This document shows, in pieces, positions 4,728 through 32,989 of a DNA stretch of 33,177 bases (its first letter is position 1; each line of letters starts with the position of its first letter). Origin of the DNA: Bacteroidales bacterium (GTDB lineage Bacteria > Bacteroidota > Bacteroidia > Bacteroidales > UBA932); NCBI GenBank assembly GCA_015060225.1, contig SUYX01000022.1, forward strand, positions 1 to 33,177, written 5' to 3'. The translations under genes and the position numbers were made by a program. The notes under the pieces were generated by a model. It saw only the letters and a list, made by a program, of their open reading frames with translations. It did no database searches and was not told where the DNA came from.

Positions 4728-5318
4728 ATGAACAATAAAGATAATTTTGAGATATCACAGGAACTGGAGCAGATGCGCCGGCAGTTCAGTATCCTCTCCA
4801 AGAAGGTGGAGGAGCAGAATATTGTTACAGATTCCATATTGGACGTTGCCACATTAAAGGAGAATATCTATACAGTTGACAAAAGTCTTGAATACAAGCG
4901 TATCATGTGGCGAGTTGTACTCAGTATAATGGTGGCATATTTTATGGTAAAACAAATGTATCCTCTATGGAGTTGCATTGTAATCCCTGTACTTTGCCTT
5001 TTGAATGCAGCTGTATATTATTACAAAAGGAAAACTCAAGATAATCTGTTGGATTATGCAGGAGACTTGAAGGAGTTTGTACATAGAGTGAAAATCCTCA
5101 AATCACATCATATTTATACGTCAATATTCTCAAATATTATAACTGTGACAGCAGTTGCCTTGTTTGTATGGGTATACATGGGCCATAACCCTGGCCTTTC
5201 ACACTCATCCATTACAAACATTGCAATCTTTATCATTGTCTTTATAGGTACACTCATTTGGTATGAGAGAAAAAAACTAAGCACTTTGAATGAAATTATA
5301 AAAGAAATTGAGCAGTAA
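4728..5318 (+). CDS. Coiled-coil membrane protein, candidate anti-sigma factor
   Basis: The family is not one I can name. The 196-residue product starts with about 60 charged residues predicted to form a coiled coil (ISQELEQMRRQFSILSKKVE). Two hydrophobic hairpins follow, at about 65-102 (VVLSIMVAYFMVKQMYPLW, then VIPVLCLLNAAVYYYK) and 137-180 (IFSNIITVTAVALFVWVYMG, then IAIFIIVFIGTLIWYERK). This gives four membrane helices with a cytoplasmic N-terminus. The position directly after an ECF sigma gene, and a soluble head joined to a membrane anchor, suggest a regulator that holds the sigma factor at the membrane. No classical anti-sigma motif such as a zinc-binding HxxxCxxC is present. Function is inferred from context only. 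Confidence 0.7.
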   Translation: MNNKDNFEISQELEQMRRQFSILSKKVEEQNIVTDSILDVATLKENIYTVDKSLEYKRIMWRVVLSIMVAYFMVKQMYPLWSCIVIPVLCLLNAAVYYYKRKTQDNLLDYAGDLKEFVHRVKILKSHHIYTSIFSNIITVTAVALFVWVYMGHNPGLSHSSITNIAIFIIVFIGTLIWYERKKLSTLNEIIKEIEQ

Positions 5319-5319
5319 T

Positions 5320-6192
5320 ATGAAACGCATACTTGTAATTATAGCCTTGTTTCTACTGGCAGTTCCGGCAGCCAATGCCCAGCTGCTCTGGAAAATATCG
5401 GGAAGAGGAGTTGAGAAACCTTCTTATATTTTGGGTACTCATCACGCAGTTCCGTTTACCTATTGTGATTCCATTCCCGGTCTGATGAAGGCATTTGGGG
5501 AGGTTGCCCAGGTGGTAGGGGAGTTTGATATGCTTAAGATGGGTGCAATGACTCCGCAGCAGATGCAGAATATGCAGAGAATGATGATGATGCCTGCAGA
5601 TACTACCATGGCATCACTTTTCACCCAGGCAGAAATGGATTCCCTAGATACTTACCTCAAGAATACCATGGGTGCCAACTTGCAGATGCTCTCCTCCATG
5701 AAACCTATGACCATAATGGTAACCGTTCAGCAGAAGATGCTCATGGAGATTATTCCCGACATTGCTACCCGTACCGGTATGGACAAATATATGCAGACCA
5801 TTGCTGCCGAAAAAGGGAAACAGGTGGGAGGTCTTGAGACAATGGAATACCAATTGGACCTCCTGTACGGAAGTTCTCTGCAGGAACAGGCAGATGCACT
5901 TCTGGATATGGCCCGCAGAGGCAACAGCAAGGAATTGCTTGTAGAACTGACTGCTGCCTACAAGACTCAGGACATCGGTACTCTATGGAAAATTTTCCAG
6001 GAGCAGATGACCAGCCTGGAATATGATGCATTGGTAAAAACCAGAAATCTCAACTGGCTGGAAGAGATGAAAAAACTCCTGCCGTCCCGGAGCACCCTAT
6101 ATGTGGTTGGATCAGGGCATCTGCCGGGAGATTATGGTATGATCAATTTGCTGCGTGAGGCAGGATATAAAGTGAGGCCGGTGAAAAAATAG
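5320..6192 (+). CDS. TraB/GumN-family protein, secreted
   Basis: The start at 5320 (one base after the preceding stop) gives 290 residues beginning MKRILVIIALFLLAVPAANA, a clear cleavable signal peptide. The mature protein opens with LLWKISGRGVEKPSYILGTH, the family-defining start (WKisg..kpsYlLGTiH) of TraB/GumN proteins. These carry conserved GxxH motifs and are thought to be metal-dependent proteases related to Tiki. The second motif, YVVGSGHLPGDYGMINLLRE, sits at the C-terminus as expected. A Met-rich stretch occupies the middle (about residues 75-105). It shares an operon with the sigma factor and membrane protein, so it may be part of the same envelope stress response. Confidence 0.88.
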   Translation: MKRILVIIALFLLAVPAANAQLLWKISGRGVEKPSYILGTHHAVPFTYCDSIPGLMKAFGEVAQVVGEFDMLKMGAMTPQQMQNMQRMMMMPADTTMASLFTQAEMDSLDTYLKNTMGANLQMLSSMKPMTIMVTVQQKMLMEIIPDIATRTGMDKYMQTIAAEKGKQVGGLETMEYQLDLLYGSSLQEQADALLDMARRGNSKELLVELTAAYKTQDIGTLWKIFQEQMTSLEYDALVKTRNLNWLEEMKKLLPSRSTLYVVGSGHLPGDYGMINLLREAGYKVRPVKK

Positions 6193-6227
6193 TTCTACGT
6201 TTCCGTCTCTTGTCTATACTCCACGCC

Positions 6228-6281
6228 GTTGCGTGCATGCCTCCAGATGCTTGCGTTCCTCCAGATGCTGGTATCCAAGCC
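6228..6281. repeat. 18-bp minisatellite array (3 units)
   Basis: Three 18-base units start at 6228 (GTTGCGTGCATGCCTCCA), 6246 (GATGCTTGCGTTCCTCCA) and 6264 (GATGCTGGTATCCAAGCC). The last is the beginning of the 145-bp core, exactly as in the longer array at 3367-3556. It lies 35 bases past the stop of the TraB-like gene. Confidence 0.8.
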
Positions 6282-6408
6282 GATGCGAACAAAAATCACT
6301 GCTCAGCGTGAGTGTAATGTACTCATCGGGAAGGAGGTCCAGTACGATGCGAACAGCAAGTGCTTCTATACGGGCCTGCAGGGCACATCAATGTTCGCAC
6401 CGTCTTGC
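6264..6408 (+). repeat. 145-bp dispersed intergenic repeat, copy 2
   Basis: Gap-free match to 3539-3683, including both GATGCGAACA motifs and the inverted TGTTCGCA (6392-6399) that can pair with TGCGAACA (6348-6355). It occupies the spacer between the convergent TraB-like and ABC-F genes. Confidence 0.85.
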
Positions 6409-6463
6409 GGAAAAGAGGTTCATTGCACCGTCTTGCGGAAAAGAGGTTCATCGCACCGTCTTA
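6397..6463. repeat. Tandem 28-bp units at the end of repeat copy 2
   Basis: Two full units (6397-6424, 6425-6452) begin GCACCGTCTTGCGGAAAAGA and differ in one base; a partial third unit ends at 6463. The head of the unit (GCACCG.CTTGC) is shared with the tandem units of copy 1, but the tail is different. Each locus thus duplicated its own junction. The array ends 9 bases from the stop codon of the ABC-F gene. Confidence 0.85.
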
Positions 6464-6472
6464 TGCCAGGTA

Positions 6473-8110
6473 TCAGTTTTTCCTCTCAATCTCCCTGAGG
6501 TTTTCCATTTTCTTCTTTTCCAGGAAGTCATACACGCCGCCAAGATGCTCAATCACCCTCTTGTTGGAGAATTCGTAAACCTTGCTCACAAGGCCGTCCA
6601 GAAAGTCGCGGTCATGGGAAACCACTATAAGGGTGCCGTCAAAGTTTTTCAGCGCCTCTTTTAGGATATCTTTTGTCTTCAGGTCCAGATGGTTGGTAGG
6701 CTCATCCAGGATGAGCATGTTTACCGGTTCCAGCAGCAGTTTTATCATTGCAAGTCTGGTCCTTTCTCCTCCCGACAACACCTTCACCATCTTCTCCGAA
6801 TCATCCTTTCCGAACATGAATGCCCCAAGGATATCCCTCAACTTGGTACGGATATCACCCACCGCAACATCATCCACAGTCTTGAATACCGTCTTCTCCT
6901 CATCCAGCAGCGATGCCTCATTCTGGGCAAAATATCCAATCTTGAGGTTGTGCCCCAGATTCAGTTCCCCCTCATAATCAATCTCCCCCATAATAGCCTT
7001 TACCATAGTGGATTTTCCCTCTCCGTTCTTCCCGACAAATGCTACCTTGTCACCCCTCTCAATGGTAATGGAGGCATTTCCGAACACCTTGTGCTCTCCG
7101 TAGGATTTTGCCAGTTCATGGGTTACCACAGGATATGAACCTGAACGTGGAGCAGGGGGGAACCTGAGGTTCAGAGCGCTCCTGTCTTCCGGATCCACCT
7201 CCAGAATCTCCAGTTTCTCCAGCATCCTCACCCTCGACTGCACCTGATTGGTCTTTGAGTAGGTTCCCTTGAACCTCTCAATGAACTCCTTGGTCTCGGC
7301 AATCATCTTCTGCTGGTTATCGTAGGCGGCCTGTTGCTGCTGGCGCCTCTCGGCCCGCAGTTCAAGATATTTTGAATAGTTTACCTTATAGTCATAAATC
7401 TTCCCCATTGTAATCTCAATGGTACGGGTAGTTATATGGTCTACAAAAGCCTTGTCATGGGAGATTACCATCACCGAGTTGGCACTGTTTATGATAAAAT
7501 CCTCCAGCCACTCAATAGACTCAATATCAAGGTGGTTTGTAGGCTCATCCAGAAGGAGCAGGGTGGGTTTCTGCAACAGAATCTTAGCCAGTTCTATCCT
7601 CATTCTCCATCCTCCGGAGAACTCAGAGGTTTGTCGGGACAAATCATCCCTTACAAATCCGAGTCCCATGAGGGTCCTCTCTACATCCTCCTGATAGTTG
7701 GTGAGGTCTATCCTGTAGAATTTCTCAGATAGGGCGGTAACTTTTTCAATGAGAGCCATGTACTCTTCGCTGTCGTAGTCTGTACGGGTGGTGAGTTCAT
7801 TGTTGAGGGCCTCAATCTCCCTCTCAATTGCAAACAGGTGCTCAAATGCGAGACATGCCTCCTCAAAGACCGTTCTCCCGTTCTCCACCATAAGGTGCTG
7901 GGGAAGGTAACCTATCTTGCCGCCGTCCGTTACCGTAACCTTTCCCCTGTTGGGTGTCTTTACTCCGGCAAGAATCTTGAGCATGGTGGATTTTCCGGCA
8001 CCGTTCTTTCCCATAAGGGCAATCCTGTCCTTGTCATTGATAACAAAAGAGATATCCTTGAACAGCGTTGTACCGCTGAATTCTACTGTTAGCCCGTCTA
8101 CTGAAACCAT
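6473..8110 (-). CDS. ABC-F family ATPase (ribosome-associated)
   Basis: The 545-residue protein consists of two ABC ATPase domains in tandem with no membrane segments, the layout of ABC-F translation factors. Domain 1 has Walker A GKNGAGKST (about residue 35-43), signature FSGGWRMRIELAKILL and Walker B LLLLDEPTNHLD. Domain 2 has GKNGEGKST, LSGGERTRLAMIKLL and MLILDEPTNHLD. A charged linker of about 80 residues with ELRAERRQQQQAAYDNQQ joins them, as in EttA/Uup-type proteins that act at the ribosomal E site. There is no antibiotic-resistance-type extension that I can recognise, so a housekeeping role in translation is more likely than ribosome protection. It is convergent with the TraB-like gene. 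Confidence 0.93.
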   Translation of the reverse strand: MVSVDGLTVEFSGTTLFKDISFVINDKDRIALMGKNGAGKSTMLKILAGVKTPNRGKVTVTDGGKIGYLPQHLMVENGRTVFEEACLAFEHLFAIEREIEALNNELTTRTDYDSEEYMALIEKVTALSEKFYRIDLTNYQEDVERTLMGLGFVRDDLSRQTSEFSGGWRMRIELAKILLQKPTLLLLDEPTNHLDIESIEWLEDFIINSANSVMVISHDKAFVDHITTRTIEITMGKIYDYKVNYSKYLELRAERRQQQQAAYDNQQKMIAETKEFIERFKGTYSKTNQVQSRVRMLEKLEILEVDPEDRSALNLRFPPAPRSGSYPVVTHELAKSYGEHKVFGNASITIERGDKVAFVGKNGEGKSTMVKAIMGEIDYEGELNLGHNLKIGYFAQNEASLLDEEKTVFKTVDDVAVGDIRTKLRDILGAFMFGKDDSEKMVKVLSGGERTRLAMIKLLLEPVNMLILDEPTNHLDLKTKDILKEALKNFDGTLIVVSHDRDFLDGLVSKVYEFSNKRVIEHLGGVYDFLEKKKMENLREIERKN

Positions 8111-26535: not shown

Positions 26536-27588
26536 ATGAGTATGAGAAAGTTCAGAGTTTTTATGCTGCTGGTGGCAGCCGTGATGTGTTTGGCAGGAAA
26601 CGCAAATTGTCAGGAACCTACAAAGTTTACCCTTAAAGGAGATATCGGTTATATTCTTAAAATGTATGACAATGGGTCTGTAATTGAGTCGGTGGCTTTA
26701 AGGCAATATCCAAATATGAAACTTATCAGCAATGGAGGTAGTGAAATCTCCTATTATGGAGTTTTTGACGGGAAACCTCAGGTTGCGGAACTTGTGATAG
26801 ATCTTACTGTACCTGGTGGTACAGGTTCTACAAGTCTGGCTTTTGTGCTGGAGGAGGGAACAATTGAATTTGATGGAGCTCCTGCACCTAAAGGGGGCAG
26901 ATTGAACAATGCGTTGAGAGGATTGTTGGTGGAACTGCCAAAAATGAAGGAGAAGGATGCAGTTGAAACAATCCGCAAGTTTGTTGCCCAGGCAGATAAT
27001 GCACCAGCATCTGTTATATTGCTGTCAACAGTAAAAGAACTGATAGGGGCCGGCAACACATTCTCCATTATAGCACAGGCCCCCAAGGAGGTGAAGAACC
27101 ATTGGGCAATTAAGTCCATGCTTCCACAATTGCGTGCAGATGCATTTATGGAACAGAATATGAAAGCTACAGACAGCGGGAAAAAATTCAAGGATTTTAC
27201 CGTTTATTACAAGGGTAAGGAGCAGAACCTTTCTGATTATGTGGGGAAAGGGAAGTATGTGCTTGTGGATTTTTGGGCAAGCTGGTGCGGACCGTGCATG
27301 CAGGAGATTCCAAACCTGATAAATGTTTACAAGAAGTATGCAGGGGAGAATTTTGATGTTTTGGGAGTTGCTGTAAATGACAAGCCCCAGAACACAGAAC
27401 AGGCAATAGAAAAATTGGGAATCCCATATCCTCAGATAATTGGTGCAGGAGGGGAAATTTCTGCACTTTACGGTATAAATGCAATCCCACACCTTATCCT
27501 GTTTGCTCCCGACGGCACAATTGTACAGAGGGGGATGCGTGGCCCACAGATTGAGGAGGCAGTGAAAAAGGCACTTAAACTGAAATGA
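26536..27588 (+). CDS. Periplasmic TlpA-like thioredoxin-fold protein
   Basis: From the ATG at 26536 the product has 350 residues and starts MSMRKFRVFMLLVAAVMCLA, a signal peptide. The middle (about 30-200) is a beta-rich region followed by helices, resembling the DUF4369-type domain that precedes thioredoxin domains in Bacteroidota. The C-terminal domain (about 215-350) is a thioredoxin fold with VLVDFWASWCGPCMQEIPNL, that is a CGPC redox pair. The cis-Pro lies in GINAIPHLILFAPDG. It should act as a periplasmic disulfide reductase or peroxide-linked redox protein. It is the first gene of an operon with the deformylase-peptidase 15 bases downstream, so its client may be that enzyme or its substrates. 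Confidence 0.92.
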   Translation: MSMRKFRVFMLLVAAVMCLAGNANCQEPTKFTLKGDIGYILKMYDNGSVIESVALRQYPNMKLISNGGSEISYYGVFDGKPQVAELVIDLTVPGGTGSTSLAFVLEEGTIEFDGAPAPKGGRLNNALRGLLVELPKMKEKDAVETIRKFVAQADNAPASVILLSTVKELIGAGNTFSIIAQAPKEVKNHWAIKSMLPQLRADAFMEQNMKATDSGKKFKDFTVYYKGKEQNLSDYVGKGKYVLVDFWASWCGPCMQEIPNLINVYKKYAGENFDVLGVAVNDKPQNTEQAIEKLGIPYPQIIGAGGEISALYGINAIPHLILFAPDGTIVQRGMRGPQIEEAVKKALKLK

Positions 27589-27602: not shown

Positions 27603-29897
27603 ATGAAAAGGGTATTTGTTTTTGCATTGGCGGCGTTTGCTGCATTTCTTATGGTATCCTGTGGAACTGCAGCAGGTGGTTTTACGGAGGCAGAGAAGGA
27701 GATTATAAATGCTTCTCCCGATGATATACTCAAGGTCTTGACTGTCGGGAATGAAGAGGAACTCTCCGTGTTGAGGAGGGTTTCAGAAGATCTTTCTGTG
27801 GAGGAACTTGAGGGTGAACTTTATGGTTTGCTGGCCAGGAGAATGGTGGAGACAGTTTCAGATTCCACTGTAGATGGCGTTGGACTGGCCGCTCCCCAGA
27901 TAGGGATAAACAGGAATATAGTGGCGGTGCAGAGGTTCGACAAGCCCAGTGCTCCATTTGAGGTTTATCCTAATATCTCTATTGTAGAGTATTCAGATTC
28001 GCTGGCATTGGGGCCGGAGGGGTGCCTTTCGGTTCCGGGCCGCAGACATGATGTGGAGCGTTCAACAGGGGTTACAATAAGATATTATTCCCTTGAGTCC
28101 GGTGCTATGGTTGAGGAGAAGATAGAGGGGTTCACTGCAGTGATTTTCCAGCATGAGGTCGATCATCTTGGAGGAGTCCTGTATATAGACCGCCTTCCCG
28201 AATTTCTCACTTATGCGGAGGCGACAATGTTCCGCAAGACCCCAAAATATGATCAGACTATTGAGTATTTCCGACGTCTGGAGGAGTATTCCCCAATGGT
28301 TAATGTAACCTCCTTTGGTGAATCTCCACTTGGCAGGGAATTGCCCCTGGTGATAGTGGATAAGGATGGGTTGCGTTCGCCGGAGAAGATTCGTGCAAAA
28401 GGGAGGGTGATTATTCTTGTGGAGTCCTGTATCCATGCAGGTGAGCCGGATGGAAAGGATGCTTCAATGATATTTTTGAGGGATCTGGTTGCGGAAAAGA
28501 AAAATATTGGGTTGCTGGATGATGTGAGTTTCCTGTTCATTCCAATCTTCAATGTTGACGGGCATGAGAATTTTACCGCACTCAACAGAATTAACCAGAA
28601 TGGTCCCGACGAGTTGGGTACCAGGAACACCTCGCAGCAGCTGAACCTTAACCGCGATTTCCTTAAGGCGGATGCTCCCGAGATGAGGGCATGGCTGCAG
28701 ATGTACAACCATTGGCTTCCGGAACTCTTTATAGATGTGCATGTTACAAATGGTGCAGATTTCCAGTATGTGATGACATACGCTATTGACAACATGACGG
28801 GCAATATGGAGCCTGGGATTACCCGTTGGAGCCGTGATGTTTATGAGAAGCAGTTGTGCGGAATGATGGAGCAGGCGGGATACCCTATATTCCCGTATGG
28901 TTCCTTCAAGAAATATAATGCTCCTGAGAGCGGTTTTGTGCCGGATACCTTTGATCCGCGCTATTCCCAGGGGTATGCTGCTGCCCATAACAGGTTGGGA
29001 CTCCTCATTGAGAACCATATCTACAAGCCTTACGGCCAGAGGGTTGATGCTACAGTAAAGGCCCTTTGGGCAAGTGCCCGCATTCTGGCAGAAAATAAAG
29101 AGTCTCTGGTTGAGACTTTGGCTACTGCTGATGCTTTTGTTTCATCCCCTGCCTCCAGAAAGGAGCCTTTCGGGTTCAGGTACAGATCTACTGATGACGC
29201 CCCTGTGATGGTGGATTATTTGAGTTGGGGCCGCGATACCGTTTTGAGTGATTTGAGTGGTGGGGAGTGGGTTACTCACGACTATTCTGATCCAATAACC
29301 ATGAGGATACCGTTCTACCCATCTTTCGCTCCGGCAGATTCTGTGTATCTCCCTAAGGCATATATTCTTATGCCACAATGGAAAGAGGTTGTGGATCTGC
29401 TTGCCCTCCATGGGGTGAAATACTCCGTTTTACCTGAGTCTGGAGAGGTGGAGGTGGAAACCTACCGTTATACAGGAGGAAAATTCTCTTCCCGACAAAG
29501 TGAAGGGCGTATCCCTGTAACCCCACAATATACCACCCAGATTGAGAAATTACAGTATCCTGCAGGGAGCATCTATATAGATATGGACCAGCCTGCTTCC
29601 AGGGTTGCCATGTGGCTGCTGGAACCTGCTGCTCCCGGCTCCCTTACCTATTGGGGTTTCTTTAATGTATGTGTGCAGGCCGGCAACGAGTTCTGGATCC
29701 GTCCCCAGTATATGGAGGTGAAAGGACGCGAAATGCTTGCCGCAGACCCTGCCCTGAAGGCCGAATTTGAAAAGAAATTGCGTGAAGACCGCTCCTTTGC
29801 CTCTTCTCCTCAGGCAATTCTCGGCTTCTTCTACGATATCGTCCGCAAACGCGCCCATCAGAACAATGAGCTTCATCCTGTTTGGCGTGTATTGTGA
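27603..29897 (+). CDS. Exported lipoprotein fusing peptide deformylase and M14 carboxypeptidase
   Basis: The ATG at 27603 is preceded by GGAGG (27591-27595) and gives 764 residues starting MKRVFVFALAAFAAFLMVSC, a lipoprotein signal with the lipid Cys at 20. Residues of about 30-200 are a peptide deformylase with all three motifs: GVGLAAPQIG (92-101), EGCLSVPG (139-146, metal ligand Cys141) and QHEVDH (183-188, ligands His184 and His188, catalytic Glu185). Residues of about 212-764 are an M14 zinc carboxypeptidase. Its ligands are in HAGE (His278, Glu281) and DVHVTNG (His380), the substrate-binding Arg in NLNRDF (351), and the catalytic Glu in LLIENH (about 470). Both active sites look intact. 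Deformylases normally act on new proteins in the cytoplasm; this one should be outside it. A role in using formyl-Met peptides is inferred. The stop lies inside the next palindromic element. Confidence 0.93.
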   Translation: MKRVFVFALAAFAAFLMVSCGTAAGGFTEAEKEIINASPDDILKVLTVGNEEELSVLRRVSEDLSVEELEGELYGLLARRMVETVSDSTVDGVGLAAPQIGINRNIVAVQRFDKPSAPFEVYPNISIVEYSDSLALGPEGCLSVPGRRHDVERSTGVTIRYYSLESGAMVEEKIEGFTAVIFQHEVDHLGGVLYIDRLPEFLTYAEATMFRKTPKYDQTIEYFRRLEEYSPMVNVTSFGESPLGRELPLVIVDKDGLRSPEKIRAKGRVIILVESCIHAGEPDGKDASMIFLRDLVAEKKNIGLLDDVSFLFIPIFNVDGHENFTALNRINQNGPDELGTRNTSQQLNLNRDFLKADAPEMRAWLQMYNHWLPELFIDVHVTNGADFQYVMTYAIDNMTGNMEPGITRWSRDVYEKQLCGMMEQAGYPIFPYGSFKKYNAPESGFVPDTFDPRYSQGYAAAHNRLGLLIENHIYKPYGQRVDATVKALWASARILAENKESLVETLATADAFVSSPASRKEPFGFRYRSTDDAPVMVDYLSWGRDTVLSDLSGGEWVTHDYSDPITMRIPFYPSFAPADSVYLPKAYILMPQWKEVVDLLALHGVKYSVLPESGEVEVETYRYTGGKFSSRQSEGRIPVTPQYTTQIEKLQYPAGSIYIDMDQPASRVAMWLLEPAAPGSLTYWGFFNVCVQAGNEFWIRPQYMEVKGREMLAADPALKAEFEKKLREDRSFASSPQAILGFFYDIVRKRAHQNNELHPVWRVL

Positions 29898-30023
29898 CGT
29901 TGTCTTTTTGTACAATTGTTTGGTTTCCAAACAATTGTAAAATGAGGTGCGTGGGATTTTCCAGCACCTCATTTTTTATTTTGCTGATACTCAGCAAAAT
30001 GTACAAAAAGACAACGTCACAAT
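29891..30023. repeat. Palindromic element with three inner hairpins, copy 1
   Basis: A perfect 24-base inverted repeat (29891-29914 and 30000-30023), containing the core ACGTTGTCTTTTTGTACA, encloses three more hairpins. The first is TACAATTGTTTGG/CCAAACAATTGTA (29911-29939), the second AATGAGGTGC/GCACCTCATT (29941-29973) followed by TTTTTT, the third ATTTTGCTGA/TCAGCAAAAT (29978-30000). The fold is a cloverleaf. The left arm contains the last codons and stop (29895-29897) of the deformylase-peptidase gene. The same core arm recurs at 32865-32989. Confidence 0.85.
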
Positions 30024-30042
30024 GTAAAAAAAATTATCACCT

Positions 30043-30167: not shown

Positions 30168-31580
30168 ATGATTAAAAAGTCAATAATATCGGTTGTTTCG
30201 GGAGTGATAGCAGTGATTATACTGTCGGGAAGAGGTGCAGCATATGCACAGGAGAAGGTTTATACCCTAAAAGAGTGTATGGAGTATGCCGTCTCAAATT
30301 CAACTCAAATGAGGATACAGCAGGCCAATACTAGGGATGCACAGCTGGAGAGGAGGAGTGCGATACTTCAGGCGTTTACCCCGGCAGTTTCTGCAGGTAC
30401 TTATGCATACTACAATTTTGGACGTTCGGTGGATCCGGAGACCAATACCTACAAATCTACAACATCGTTCCAGAACGGTTATTCGGCCTCGGGTTCTATA
30501 ACCCTCTTCAACGGGTTTGAGGCACTCAACAATCTTAAAATATCCAGAACAGCTGCCGCAATGGGGCTGAGCAGGGAGCAGCAGACAAGGGACGAGATTT
30601 GCCTGGCCACAATGGAGGCTTACTATAATGTAATTTATCATCATCAGATGTGCAGGGCTCTGGCCCAGGAGGTAGAGGCTGCAGCCAAGGCGGCCCATCT
30701 TTCAAAAAGGGAAGAGGAACTGGGGCGCAAGGGGTATGCGGATGTTGTGCAGATTGAGGCAGATCTTGCAGCAAAGGAGTACAGGCTTACCACTACCAGA
30801 AACATGTACAACGATGCTCTTATGACCCTTAAAGATATAATGTTCTGGCCTTTGGATGAGGAGTTGAATATAGATTTTTCCATAGCGGATGACTCCCTGC
30901 TTGCAAAAGCCGAAGAGTTGGTGTATGGCGGTTCATTGGATGATTGTCGGGAAGATATAATTGAAAATGCGTTGAATACCCTCCCTGCTGCAGCATTGGC
31001 AAAAGGGGAGATGATGAATGCCAAACGGGCACTCAGCACTGCAAGGATGCTGCTGCTCCCCTCTTTGAGCCTTAACGGAGGTTGGAGTACCAGTTATTTC
31101 ACTTATCCCGACGAAAAAGGTTACAAAACTGTCCCTTTCAGAGACCAGTTCTCCAACAACATGGGTGAGTATATACAGTTGTCAATGTCTATCCCTATTT
31201 ATGGTCGCCTGAACAGACAGGCAAATATCTCTCGCAAGAAAAATGCATATGACAGGGCAACTGCCCAGTATGAGCAGAAAACAAGGGAGATAGAGGCGGA
31301 AGTAACTCGAGCCCTTCAGGACAAGGAAGGTGCCCAGGCGGCTCTGCTGCAGGCCTGCAGGCAAGCAGAAGTTCAGCAGGAAGCATACAAATTCAATACA
31401 CGGAAATTTGAACAGGGGCTGATATCACCTATAGAGTATCAGACTTCGTCGGGAAACTGGTTGGCAGCCAGAGCAGAACAGATAAATGCTTTGCTGATAT
31501 ACTATTTGAAGAGAAGTGTTGTGGAGTATTACAGTGGTGTACCATACTTGGAACAGGAGTATTTGTCGGGAATAAAATAA
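30168..31580 (+). CDS. TolC-family outer membrane efflux protein
   Basis: This is the outer-membrane channel of a three-part efflux system, 470 residues. The signal peptide is followed by YTLKECMEYAVSNSTQMRIQ, the usual start of the mature TolC family. Two OEP repeats follow, with long helices such as EVEAAAKAAHLSKREEELGR and IEAEVTRALQDKEGAQAALL, and beta segments in between (YYNFGRSVDPETNTY; LSMSIPIYGRLNRQANISRK). The C-terminal KFEQGLISPIEYQTSSGNWL block is conserved in the family. The adaptor gene starts 25 bases downstream and an ABC permease after that, so the channel serves an ABC-type pump. Confidence 0.94.
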   Translation: MIKKSIISVVSGVIAVIILSGRGAAYAQEKVYTLKECMEYAVSNSTQMRIQQANTRDAQLERRSAILQAFTPAVSAGTYAYYNFGRSVDPETNTYKSTTSFQNGYSASGSITLFNGFEALNNLKISRTAAAMGLSREQQTRDEICLATMEAYYNVIYHHQMCRALAQEVEAAAKAAHLSKREEELGRKGYADVVQIEADLAAKEYRLTTTRNMYNDALMTLKDIMFWPLDEELNIDFSIADDSLLAKAEELVYGGSLDDCREDIIENALNTLPAAALAKGEMMNAKRALSTARMLLLPSLSLNGGWSTSYFTYPDEKGYKTVPFRDQFSNNMGEYIQLSMSIPIYGRLNRQANISRKKNAYDRATAQYEQKTREIEAEVTRALQDKEGAQAALLQACRQAEVQQEAYKFNTRKFEQGLISPIEYQTSSGNWLAARAEQINALLIYYLKRSVVEYYSGVPYLEQEYLSGIK

Positions 31581-31605
31581 TTTGAAAAAATATAAGATTT
31601 AAGAT

Positions 31606-32862
31606 ATGGATAAGATTATTGAAAAGAAGAAAGGTTTGGCGGTGGCCTTTACAGGAAAGGCTTTGCCGTATTGGTTGGGGGCATTTGTTGTGGTTTTTGT
31701 GTTATGGCTCGTTTTTAGGGATAATTCAAGTACTTTGAGGGTGAATGGAGAGACCCTTTCGTATGGAAATGTGGCCAAGGGTGAGTTCAATGACTACATA
31801 AGGGTTACAGGGCAGGTGCAGCCTATGACTACAATACAGATTTCACCGCTTGAGGGGGGAGTAGTGCAGGAGATTGTTACAGAGGAGGGCTCCAAGGTAA
31901 AGAAGGGGGATGTGATTCTGGTGCTGAGCAATGAGAGCCTTGATCTGCAGATTCTCAACTCGGAGGCTGAACTGGCGGAGAAGGAGAACATACTACGCAA
32001 TACCATGATCTCAATGGAGCAGCAGAAGTTGAGCGTGCATCAGGAGATGCTCCAGTTGAGGATTGAGGTGCGAAGGAGCCGCAGAGCGTATGAGAGTGCC
32101 AAGGAATTGTATGCGGAGAAACTTATTTCCCGAGAGGAGTGGCTGAAGGCTGAGGAGGATTTCATGCTGGCGTCGGACCGTCTGGAACTGGTGGAGACAC
32201 GTGCCAAACAGGACAGCCTTTACAGGGATGTTGAGATTACCCAGATGAGGGAGAGTCTGGACAATATGCGCCTTAATATGAGGATGATCCGCAAGAGAAA
32301 GGAGAATCTTACCATAAAGGCCCCTATTGATGGGGAACTAGGTTTGCTGGATGTTGTCCTTGGGCAGAGCATTGGAGCCGGTACCAAAGTGGGGCAGATA
32401 AACAATCTTGATTCATATAAGATTGAGGCACTTGTGGATGAGCATTATATAGACAGGGTAACTGCTGGCCTCATGGCCCAGTTTGAGAGACAGGACGAGA
32501 AATACAATACTGTTATCCGCAAGGTTTATCCGGAGGTGCGTGACGGCAAGTTCAAGACCGATTTCAAATTCAGCGGGGAGCAGCCTGCCAATATCCGCAC
32601 AGGCCAGACCTATTACCTGAACCTTCAGTTGGGACAGCCTGAGGAGGCGGTTATGATACCTCGCGGAACATTCTACCAGAAAACAGGAGGCCGTTGGATC
32701 TATGTAGTCTCAGAAGACGGAACCCGCGCCGTAAAACGCCCAATCCGCATCGGCCGCCAGAACCCTCAATTCTACGAGGTACTTGAAGGCCTGGAGCCTG
32801 GCGAAAGGGTTGTAGTAAGCGGCTATGACAACTTTGGTGACAATGAAGTACTAATTTTTTAA
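31606..32862 (+). CDS. HlyD/MacA-like periplasmic adaptor protein
   Basis: The 418-residue protein connects an inner-membrane pump to the TolC-like channel. A single membrane helix lies at about 22-38 (YWLGAFVVVFVLWLVFR). It is followed by a barrel-like segment and the lipoyl-type half-domain IQISPLEGGVVQEIVTEEGS, then a helical hairpin at about 110-220 (NSEAELAEKENILRNTMISM to VEITQMRESLDNMRLNMRMI). The second half-domain is NLTIKAPIDGELGLLDVVLG. The C-terminal membrane-proximal part includes GRQNPQFYEVLEGLEPGERV and then VVSGYDNFGD. The arrangement with an ABC permease downstream fits MacA-type adaptors. Immediately after the stop comes the second palindromic element. Confidence 0.93.
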   Translation: MDKIIEKKKGLAVAFTGKALPYWLGAFVVVFVLWLVFRDNSSTLRVNGETLSYGNVAKGEFNDYIRVTGQVQPMTTIQISPLEGGVVQEIVTEEGSKVKKGDVILVLSNESLDLQILNSEAELAEKENILRNTMISMEQQKLSVHQEMLQLRIEVRRSRRAYESAKELYAEKLISREEWLKAEEDFMLASDRLELVETRAKQDSLYRDVEITQMRESLDNMRLNMRMIRKRKENLTIKAPIDGELGLLDVVLGQSIGAGTKVGQINNLDSYKIEALVDEHYIDRVTAGLMAQFERQDEKYNTVIRKVYPEVRDGKFKTDFKFSGEQPANIRTGQTYYLNLQLGQPEEAVMIPRGTFYQKTGGRWIYVVSEDGTRAVKRPIRIGRQNPQFYEVLEGLEPGERVVVSGYDNFGDNEVLIF

Positions 32863-32864
32863 AG

Positions 32865-32989
32865 TTACGTTGTCTTTTTGTACAATATGCTGTATATCAG
32901 ATGTATGTAAAAAGAAAAGTTTAGGAAAATGTATAAAGGTGATTTTTAAGGTGCTGACATACAGCATATTGTACAAAAAGACAACGTAA
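32865..32989. repeat. Palindromic element, copy 2
   Basis: A perfect 31-base inverted repeat (32865-32895 and 32959-32989), extending to 36 bases with one mismatch (32865-32900 and 32954-32989), surrounds a 53-base A-rich loop. The outer 19 bases of each arm carry the same core, ACGTTGTCTTTTTGTACAA, as the element at 29891-30023. The inner part of the arms and the loop are unrelated to that copy. It starts 3 bases after the adaptor stop and ends 13 bases before the permease start. Confidence 0.85.

Follow-up and report, generated by a model that had tools for sequence, protein, structure and literature searches.

Research on peptide deformylases (PDFs) has treated them as essential enzymes of the cytoplasm, bound to the ribosome, and as drug targets. 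A gene on a contig of a Bacteroidales bacterium (SUYX01000022.1, assembly GCA_015060225.1), the whole 33,177 nt of which were analysed and are referred to here as the window, raises the question of what a deformylase would do behind an export signal and joined in a single frame to a peptidase.

A deformylase domain with an export signal joined to an M14 peptidase domain

The initial annotation of this DNA described one uninterrupted 764-residue frame carrying a lipoprotein signal, a deformylase with its three motifs and an M14 peptidase with all of its zinc and catalytic residues. Translation, Pfam searches and the positions of the individual residues bear out each of these elements, which are located as follows.

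27603..29897, + strand: putative exported peptide deformylase::M14 peptidase fusion, 764 aa (translation, Pfam, same fusion in G024/L033 and G006/L034)
27603..27662, + strand: lipoprotein signal peptide to lipobox Cys20 (LMVSC, residues 16-20; sequence inspection, Cys invariant in 25/25)
27729..28199, + strand: PDF domain, residues 43-199, with motifs GVGLAAPQ, EGCLS and QHEVDH (Pfam PF01327, E=9.2e-33; conservation)
28200..29894, + strand: zinc peptidase of M14 type, including a C-terminal extension of its own (PF00246, E=1.1e-14, Pfam match at 28266-28667; alignments)

The frame is free of stops over its whole length. It opens at an in-frame ATG at 27585, which would add six residues to the fusion, and the ATG at 27603 is the start that yields a clean lipoprotein signal, ending in LMVSC at residue 20. 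PF01327 matches residues 43-199 with 113.5 bits against a cut-off of 22.8 and PF00246 matches residues 222-355 with 55.2 bits against a cut-off of 21.6; scores above these cut-offs exclude chance for both domains. In the deformylase part Q99, C141, H184, E185 and H188 are present and, together with the lipobox Cys20, are invariant in 25/25 aligned exported PDFs, the window's included.

The residues expected of an M14 peptidase are also in place, namely HAGE (278-281), Arg351 (in LNRD), His380 (in DVHVT) and Glu470 (in LLIEN), all of them invariant in 9/9 aligned sequences including that of the window. We take the HxxE and His to be zinc ligands and the Arg and Glu to be catalytic. In these residues the domain resembles the M14 zinc carboxypeptidases (PF00246; carboxypeptidase A/B structures), but it differs from them in its extra C-terminal region, which is without a Pfam match, and in its position behind a deformylase. 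A profile search with the M14 part reached chains of carboxypeptidases A and B, with E-values of 4e-7 and weaker, and a single-sequence search returned no carboxypeptidase A/B chain at E 0.1. As far as sequence can tell, the window protein is confirmed to be a deformylase-like domain with an export signal joined to an M14 peptidase domain.

Recurrence and history of the fusion

How far the fusion extends beyond the window was a check proposed in the initial annotation. Among 61 genomes searched it was found in three, that is, the window's own (G000), G024 (96% identity) and G006 (83%), full-length in both of the latter. The public MAG contigs L033 (SIG149) and L034 (dairy cattle colon MAG RGIG399) carry the same full-length fusion and are probably the same genomes as G024 and G006, respectively. 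Between the window and L034, dN/dS was 0.044 for the PDF part, where dS is near saturation, and the M14 part, taken as two halves, gave 0.084 and 0.082; between the window and L033 the corresponding values were 0.092 for the PDF part and 0.062 and 0.066 for the M14 halves. In the comparison of L033 with L034, the PDF part has a saturated dS. Both domains are under purifying selection. An assembly join or a frameshift between the domains is therefore rejected, given the recurrence in two other genomes and the low dN/dS of both domains.

Relatives of the M14 part (at least 79% identity) were present in 6/37 genomes of the genus, and 6/6 of these also have an exported PDF. The two parts are arranged in several ways. 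In two genomes (G022/L036 and G015/L037) the order is reversed, with the M14 gene followed by the PDF gene 7-8 nt away, and in G008 the two genes are separated by ~18.5 kb. The stand-alone M14 proteins start, as judged by eye, with signal-peptide-like stretches. The M14 part of the fusion begins at about the place where the mature stand-alone M14 protein of L035 begins, and alignments read by eye place the junction between the end of the PDF core and approximately this mature start. One other M14 match is present in G000. On the PDF tree described below, the window, L034, L036, L037 and L038 constitute one starred clade.

Gene neighbourhood of the fusion

Two further features of the window adjoin the fusion.

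26536..27588, + strand: TlpA/ResA-like thioredoxin-fold protein with CGPC (Pfam AhpC-TSA/Redoxin; spacing; co-location)
30168..32862, + strand: TolC-like outer-membrane protein and HlyD-like adaptor pair (by eye; clusters c13 and c14)

The TlpA-like gene ends 14 nt 5' of the fusion start and is a probable operon partner. Its relatives (at least 63% identity) occur in 4/39 genomes of the genus and adjoin the exported PDF in 4/4. They were not found beside the PDF in the two genomes with the M14-PDF gene pair, nor at any other locus clustered. The earlier suggestion that this thioredoxin-like protein keeps the metal-binding Cys of the PDF reduced gains weak support from the adjacency in all four genomes, set against its absence beside the PDF at the other clustered loci. 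The PDF has relatives of c13 and c14 in its vicinity in the window, L033, L036, L037 and L038, marking a single syntenic locus; the L034 contig stops short of this region.

A 141-nt nested inverted repeat is located at window positions 29890-30030, with arms also at 32856-32900 and 32943-32987. Its DNA fold is a cloverleaf (-55.3 kcal/mol, z -14.9), and it has 63 whole or partial matches over many contigs of its own genome, some places being counted on both strands. It resembles a non-coding mobile repeat that has dispersed through the genome. In the genus, a protein of 550-580 residues, by eye a glutaminyl-tRNA synthetase, adjoins many copies of the exported PDF.

Distribution of the exported deformylases

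A profile built from 25 exported PDFs was used for the family searches. In the genus it found a full-length exported PDF in 26/39 genomes and one fragment at a contig end. The remaining 12/39 genomes, including the one-contig genome G034 (95% complete), gave no exported PDF, and the protein is therefore dispensable. In the order, at least 42/295 sampled genomes (the window's included) had a match above 134 bits, the other 41 being distributed over 27 families; this is a lower bound, as only some of the candidates in each genome were scored, and it was counted by hand. Matches at E 1e-37 or better were present in 12/395 genomes of a class sample and 11/395 of a phylum sample, two samples that share the window's genome and two others. 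Beyond the order these matches represent 18 different genomes (10 in each sample, two in both), of which one, L134 (G857), proved to be of cytoplasmic type when read. Four genomes of family f141 (G882, G931, G973 and G995) lie outside the set of loci read. The family extends to lineages of the class with large genomes of 6.9-9.5 Mb (family f121).

Exported PDFs are usually stand-alone. Outside the genus no conserved gene neighbourhood was found around them; the cluster c24 (SPFH/Band 7) recurred at 4 loci and c51 (proteins with a T9SS tail) at 3 loci only. By raw counts over 90 neighbours, these are mostly unrelated to peptide breakdown, and the 25 families listed of 103 include few peptidases, with M23 in 2/90. 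Single peptidase neighbours are an S46 peptidase by L128, a C1-like one by L130 and an M64 by L079. By similarity alone, 14/72,556 plasmid records match the exported PDF of L036, all below 60% identity and 9/14 annotated as peptide deformylase, and viral contigs hold 50 loci with PDF relatives, the best at 44% identity, which were left out of the analysis.

The PDF half of the fusion belongs to a family of exported PDFs of Bacteroidota. Since this family is widespread, the fusion as a unique oddity was rejected as the main story.

Export signals and facing side

The window protein has a hydrophobic N-terminus followed by the LMVSC lipobox, as read by inspection and by a rough rule for lipoproteins. 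The same rule finds a lipobox in 20/20 members of the genus and in 40/56 of the other exported rows in the tree. By eye, L108, L112 and L125 among these 40 resemble ordinary signal peptides; among the 16 rows in which the rule finds no lipobox, L080, L083 and L100 resemble lipoproteins and the remaining 13 start with other signal-peptide-like stretches. With the exception of L134, the fetched members from the class and phylum start with a lipoprotein or other signal-like sequence, as judged by eye and by rough rules.

In Bacteroidota, acidic residues just behind the lipid-bearing Cys constitute a surface-export motif. The window protein has no acidic residue at positions +2 to +6, and at least two such residues close behind the Cys were found in 0/20 members of the genus and in 11/40 of the others. 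Because the motif is seen in none of the 20 genus members examined, a periplasmic face seems the more likely one for them.

Comparison with cytoplasmic deformylases

The initial annotation predicted that the organism should have a normal cytoplasmic deformylase elsewhere. A PDF gene of cytoplasmic type, of 188 aa from its ATG, is present on another contig (G000:C36). A weaker match of cytoplasmic type was found in 39/39 genomes of the genus searched, the window's included; these matches were read in four of them (G000, G024, G006 and G015). The PDF of the fusion is like the cytoplasmic Def of E. coli and of its own genome in profile family (PF01327; TIGR00079), in the three motifs, in the metal ligands and in the catalytic Glu. 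It differs from them in its export signal, in the lack of a basic C-terminal tail, in its separate branch on the tree, in the fused peptidase and in a score just under the TIGR00079 cut-off (99.5 bits against 103.95 for this NCBIfam equivalog). Together with P0001, three of four exported PDFs scanned (L036, L045 and L111; not L121) fall under every curated NCBIfam deformylase cut-off.

In a tree of 98 rows, one branch parts 76 exported from 22 cytoplasmic PDFs, with support of 96/85 and presence in 97% of 200 bootstrap trees. This split is partly a split by score, as a row was labelled exported by a score above 128 bits with the exported profile first and by a reading of its N-terminus second. 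L134 was shifted by hand to the cytoplasmic side of the tree set. The root is not fixed and long branches meet on the cytoplasmic side. Of 103 PDF-like matches, five in which the pattern used found no motif I were dropped before the tree was built (the degenerate first repeats of L098, L102 and L107, the partial L054, and L168), and the exported PDF of G021 lies outside both alignment A1 and the tree.

The active site is conserved in the exported PDFs. In E. coli numbering, G43, G45, Q50, L91, S92, R102, Q131, H132, E133, D135 and H136 are invariant in 76/76 exported rows, and C90 is kept in 73/76 exported rows, the other three having Asp, and in 21/21 cytoplasmic rows. By a relaxed pattern, 67/67 exported PDFs match all three motifs; the three rows with Asp for Cys were fetched later. 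In these three (L131 4862-5500, L132 4893-5543 and L133 4741-5367) Asp stands in place of the metal-binding Cys (EGDLS) and the two His ligands are kept. Variation is seen behind motif II, where positions 95-99 differ among exported PDFs and most of them depart at position 96 from the Ile of 19/21 cytoplasmic rows.

A second difference is located in the tail past the last motif. Its net charge is +4 or more in 21/22 cytoplasmic PDFs compared to 2/72 exported PDFs, a count that leaves out four fused or run-on rows. The E. coli PDF binds ribosomal protein L22 via its C-terminal helix, according to a passage of PMC8712518, and the loss of the basic tail therefore fits work away from the ribosome. 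The fusion itself differs from a ribosome-associated cytoplasmic PDF in having a lipobox signal and in carrying the M14 domain where the tail would be. Short tails also occur outside the exported PDFs; the title of one cited reference calls the phage PDF Vp16 the smallest PDF.

Other architectures of exported deformylases

A second fusion with a peptidase was identified in L121 (G650; 5223-7709), where a single frame of 829 residues joins a signal, a PDF and a Peptidase_M1 domain; it lies on an 8.16-Mb contig of a 9.5-Mb genome that is 99% complete. Its relatives carry the parts separately, and the fused form was found in 1/13 genomes of its family. Like the window protein, L121 is an exported PDF in frame with a metallopeptidase, here of an aminopeptidase family; unlike it, L121 has a peptidase of another family (HExxH), has no lipobox and is represented by a single genome. 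The two lie in different starred clades of the exported part of the tree and are independent fusions of an exported PDF to a peptidase, one with M14 and one with M1.

Several other architectures were observed. In L122 (4976-6208) a DUF1684 domain, of a family of unknown function, precedes the exported PDF and is a possible clue to DUF1684. Tandem exported PDFs, with a first repeat lacking motif I and an intact second one, are present in L098 (4479-5633), L102 (4759-5934) and L107 (4591-5745), each followed by a gene for a protein with SPFH/Band 7 and GYF domains. About 300 residues precede the PDF in L110 and L113; a Pfam scan of L113 gave no match in this stretch. In L135 (G251; 1422-2537) the exported PDF frame runs into a cytidine/deoxycytidylate-deaminase-like domain; this may be a true fusion or a lost stop and was excluded from the fusion count.

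Proposed function

Our favoured reading, which we consider rather probable, is that the window protein is a lipid-anchored, extracytoplasmic enzyme that degrades formyl-peptides. We infer its catalysis, lipidation, facing side and substrate, and the order of its two reactions, as follows. Outside the cytoplasm, the deformylase domain would remove the formyl group from the N-terminus of formyl-Met peptides by hydrolysis, and the M14 domain would trim C-terminal residues off the same peptides, giving formate, free amino acids and a peptide whose free N-terminus would be open to aminopeptidases. The likeliest substrates would be formylated signal-peptide fragments and the N-termini of the cell's own membrane proteins, together with formyl-peptides from lysed neighbouring bacteria. 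Passages of PMC5454389 (2017) report that nascent signal sequences bound by SRP are kept from being deformylated and propose that N-out membrane proteins retain their formyl groups outside the cytoplasm, inaccessible to PDF; a passage of PMC12690207 states that membrane proteins and exported proteins in general avoid deformylation. As signal sequences and N-out termini escape the cytoplasmic PDF, an exported deformylase would have a ready substrate in its own envelope.

Degradation is the simplest reading because the partner of the PDF is a C-terminal trimmer in one of the lineages with a fusion and an M1 peptidase in the other. Against it, most genes beside exported PDFs outside the genus have no link to peptide breakdown, 12/39 genus genomes do without an exported PDF, the M14 partner is present in 6/37 genomes of the genus only and the M1 fusion in 1/13 genomes of its family. 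The dedicated extracytoplasmic pathway for formyl-Met peptides suggested in the initial annotation is in part upheld by the export signal, the intact active-site residues and the peptidase fusion, and the M1 fusion favours breakdown; it is extended by the finding that export marks a whole family and not the fusion alone. In its broader form the proposal is of a conserved Bacteroidota pathway of extracytoplasmic deformylation, in which an exported PDF branch freed from the ribosome would clear formyl-Met peptides from the envelope or surface. Independent fusions of this branch to peptidases, at least two in number (M14, M1), would have made complete enzymes for the degradation of formyl-peptides. 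For this wider proposal we regard the case as evenly balanced.

An exported PDF might alternatively be a maturation enzyme which removes the formyl group from fMet retained on N-out membrane proteins or leaderless exported proteins, the M14 domain being a passenger in a few species. Most exported PDFs read are indeed stand-alone, and the passages of PMC5454389 lead one to expect N-termini of this formylated kind in the envelope. However, fusion to M14 and M1 peptidases suggests peptides as substrates and the absence from 12/39 genus genomes speaks against an essential step, and we find this explanation unlikely.

It is quite unlikely that the exported PDF serves to destroy the formyl-peptides seen by mammalian formyl-peptide receptors (FPRs) and thereby to dampen neutrophil recruitment in the gut. 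This was the host-directed form of the pathway in the initial annotation, and nothing specific for it emerged. The named records of 4/5 near relatives come, by their titles, from ruminant gut samples; in the passages concerned, bacterial signal peptides are described as FPR ligands (PMC12432127) and the use of a deformylase as a drug to break down N-formyl peptides is put forward (PMC6563851). Set against this are the reach of the family into the 6.9-9.5 Mb lineages of the class, the acidic surface-export motif in 0/20 genus members examined and the genus genomes that do without an exported PDF.

A role as a decoy, in which the exported PDF would bind or withstand actinonin-like inhibitors before the essential cytoplasmic enzyme meets them, draws on a passage of PMC12690207, where an accessory PDF of Vibrio cholerae and an integron PDF lower susceptibility to actinonin, and on the catalytic pocket, which such inhibitors bind and which is conserved in the exported PDFs. 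It would leave unexplained both the fusion to two different peptidases and the strong conservation of both domains, and it seems improbable to us. That the signal is unused or that the substrate is another one (e.g. other N-formyl or N-acyl compounds), so that there is no extracytoplasmic formyl-peptide enzyme at all, would accommodate the variable positions 95-99, the departure at position 96 and the low NCBIfam scores of L036, L045, L111 and P0001, but is highly improbable given the invariant catalytic core and the export signals across a wide tree.

Relation to described deformylases and significance

No exported or lipoprotein PDF is named in the titles and abstracts of the matched open-licence PMC papers, and the phrases periplasmic, secreted, exported and extracellular deformylase gave no match in the open-licence PMC literature; this is not proof of novelty. 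Likewise, the deformylase passages of PMC8567305, PMC12864828, PMC4339577, PMC12020853, PMC3094199 and PMC5593965 describe no exported PDF. An ordinary PDF is listed in proteomics tables of an outer-membrane or cell-free fraction in parts of PMC4339577, where it is classed as cytoplasmic, and of PMC12020853, where its location is given as unknown. The accessory PDFs of the 2025 survey PMC12690207 are, in its passages, like the exported PDFs in being extra to an essential one. In the main text of that survey, 'lipoprotein' and 'Bacteroid' are absent, 'signal peptide' is used for substrates only and 'periplasm' for a vector only; the fusion in its passages is def-fmt of Exiguobacterium, unlike the PDF-peptidase fusions described here.

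If true, the existence of a PDF family outside the cytoplasm would bear directly on the fate of exported formylated signal peptides and membrane-protein ends and on how surveys count and interpret accessory deformylases. It would also bear on the formyl-peptide signal that gut bacteria release to their hosts.
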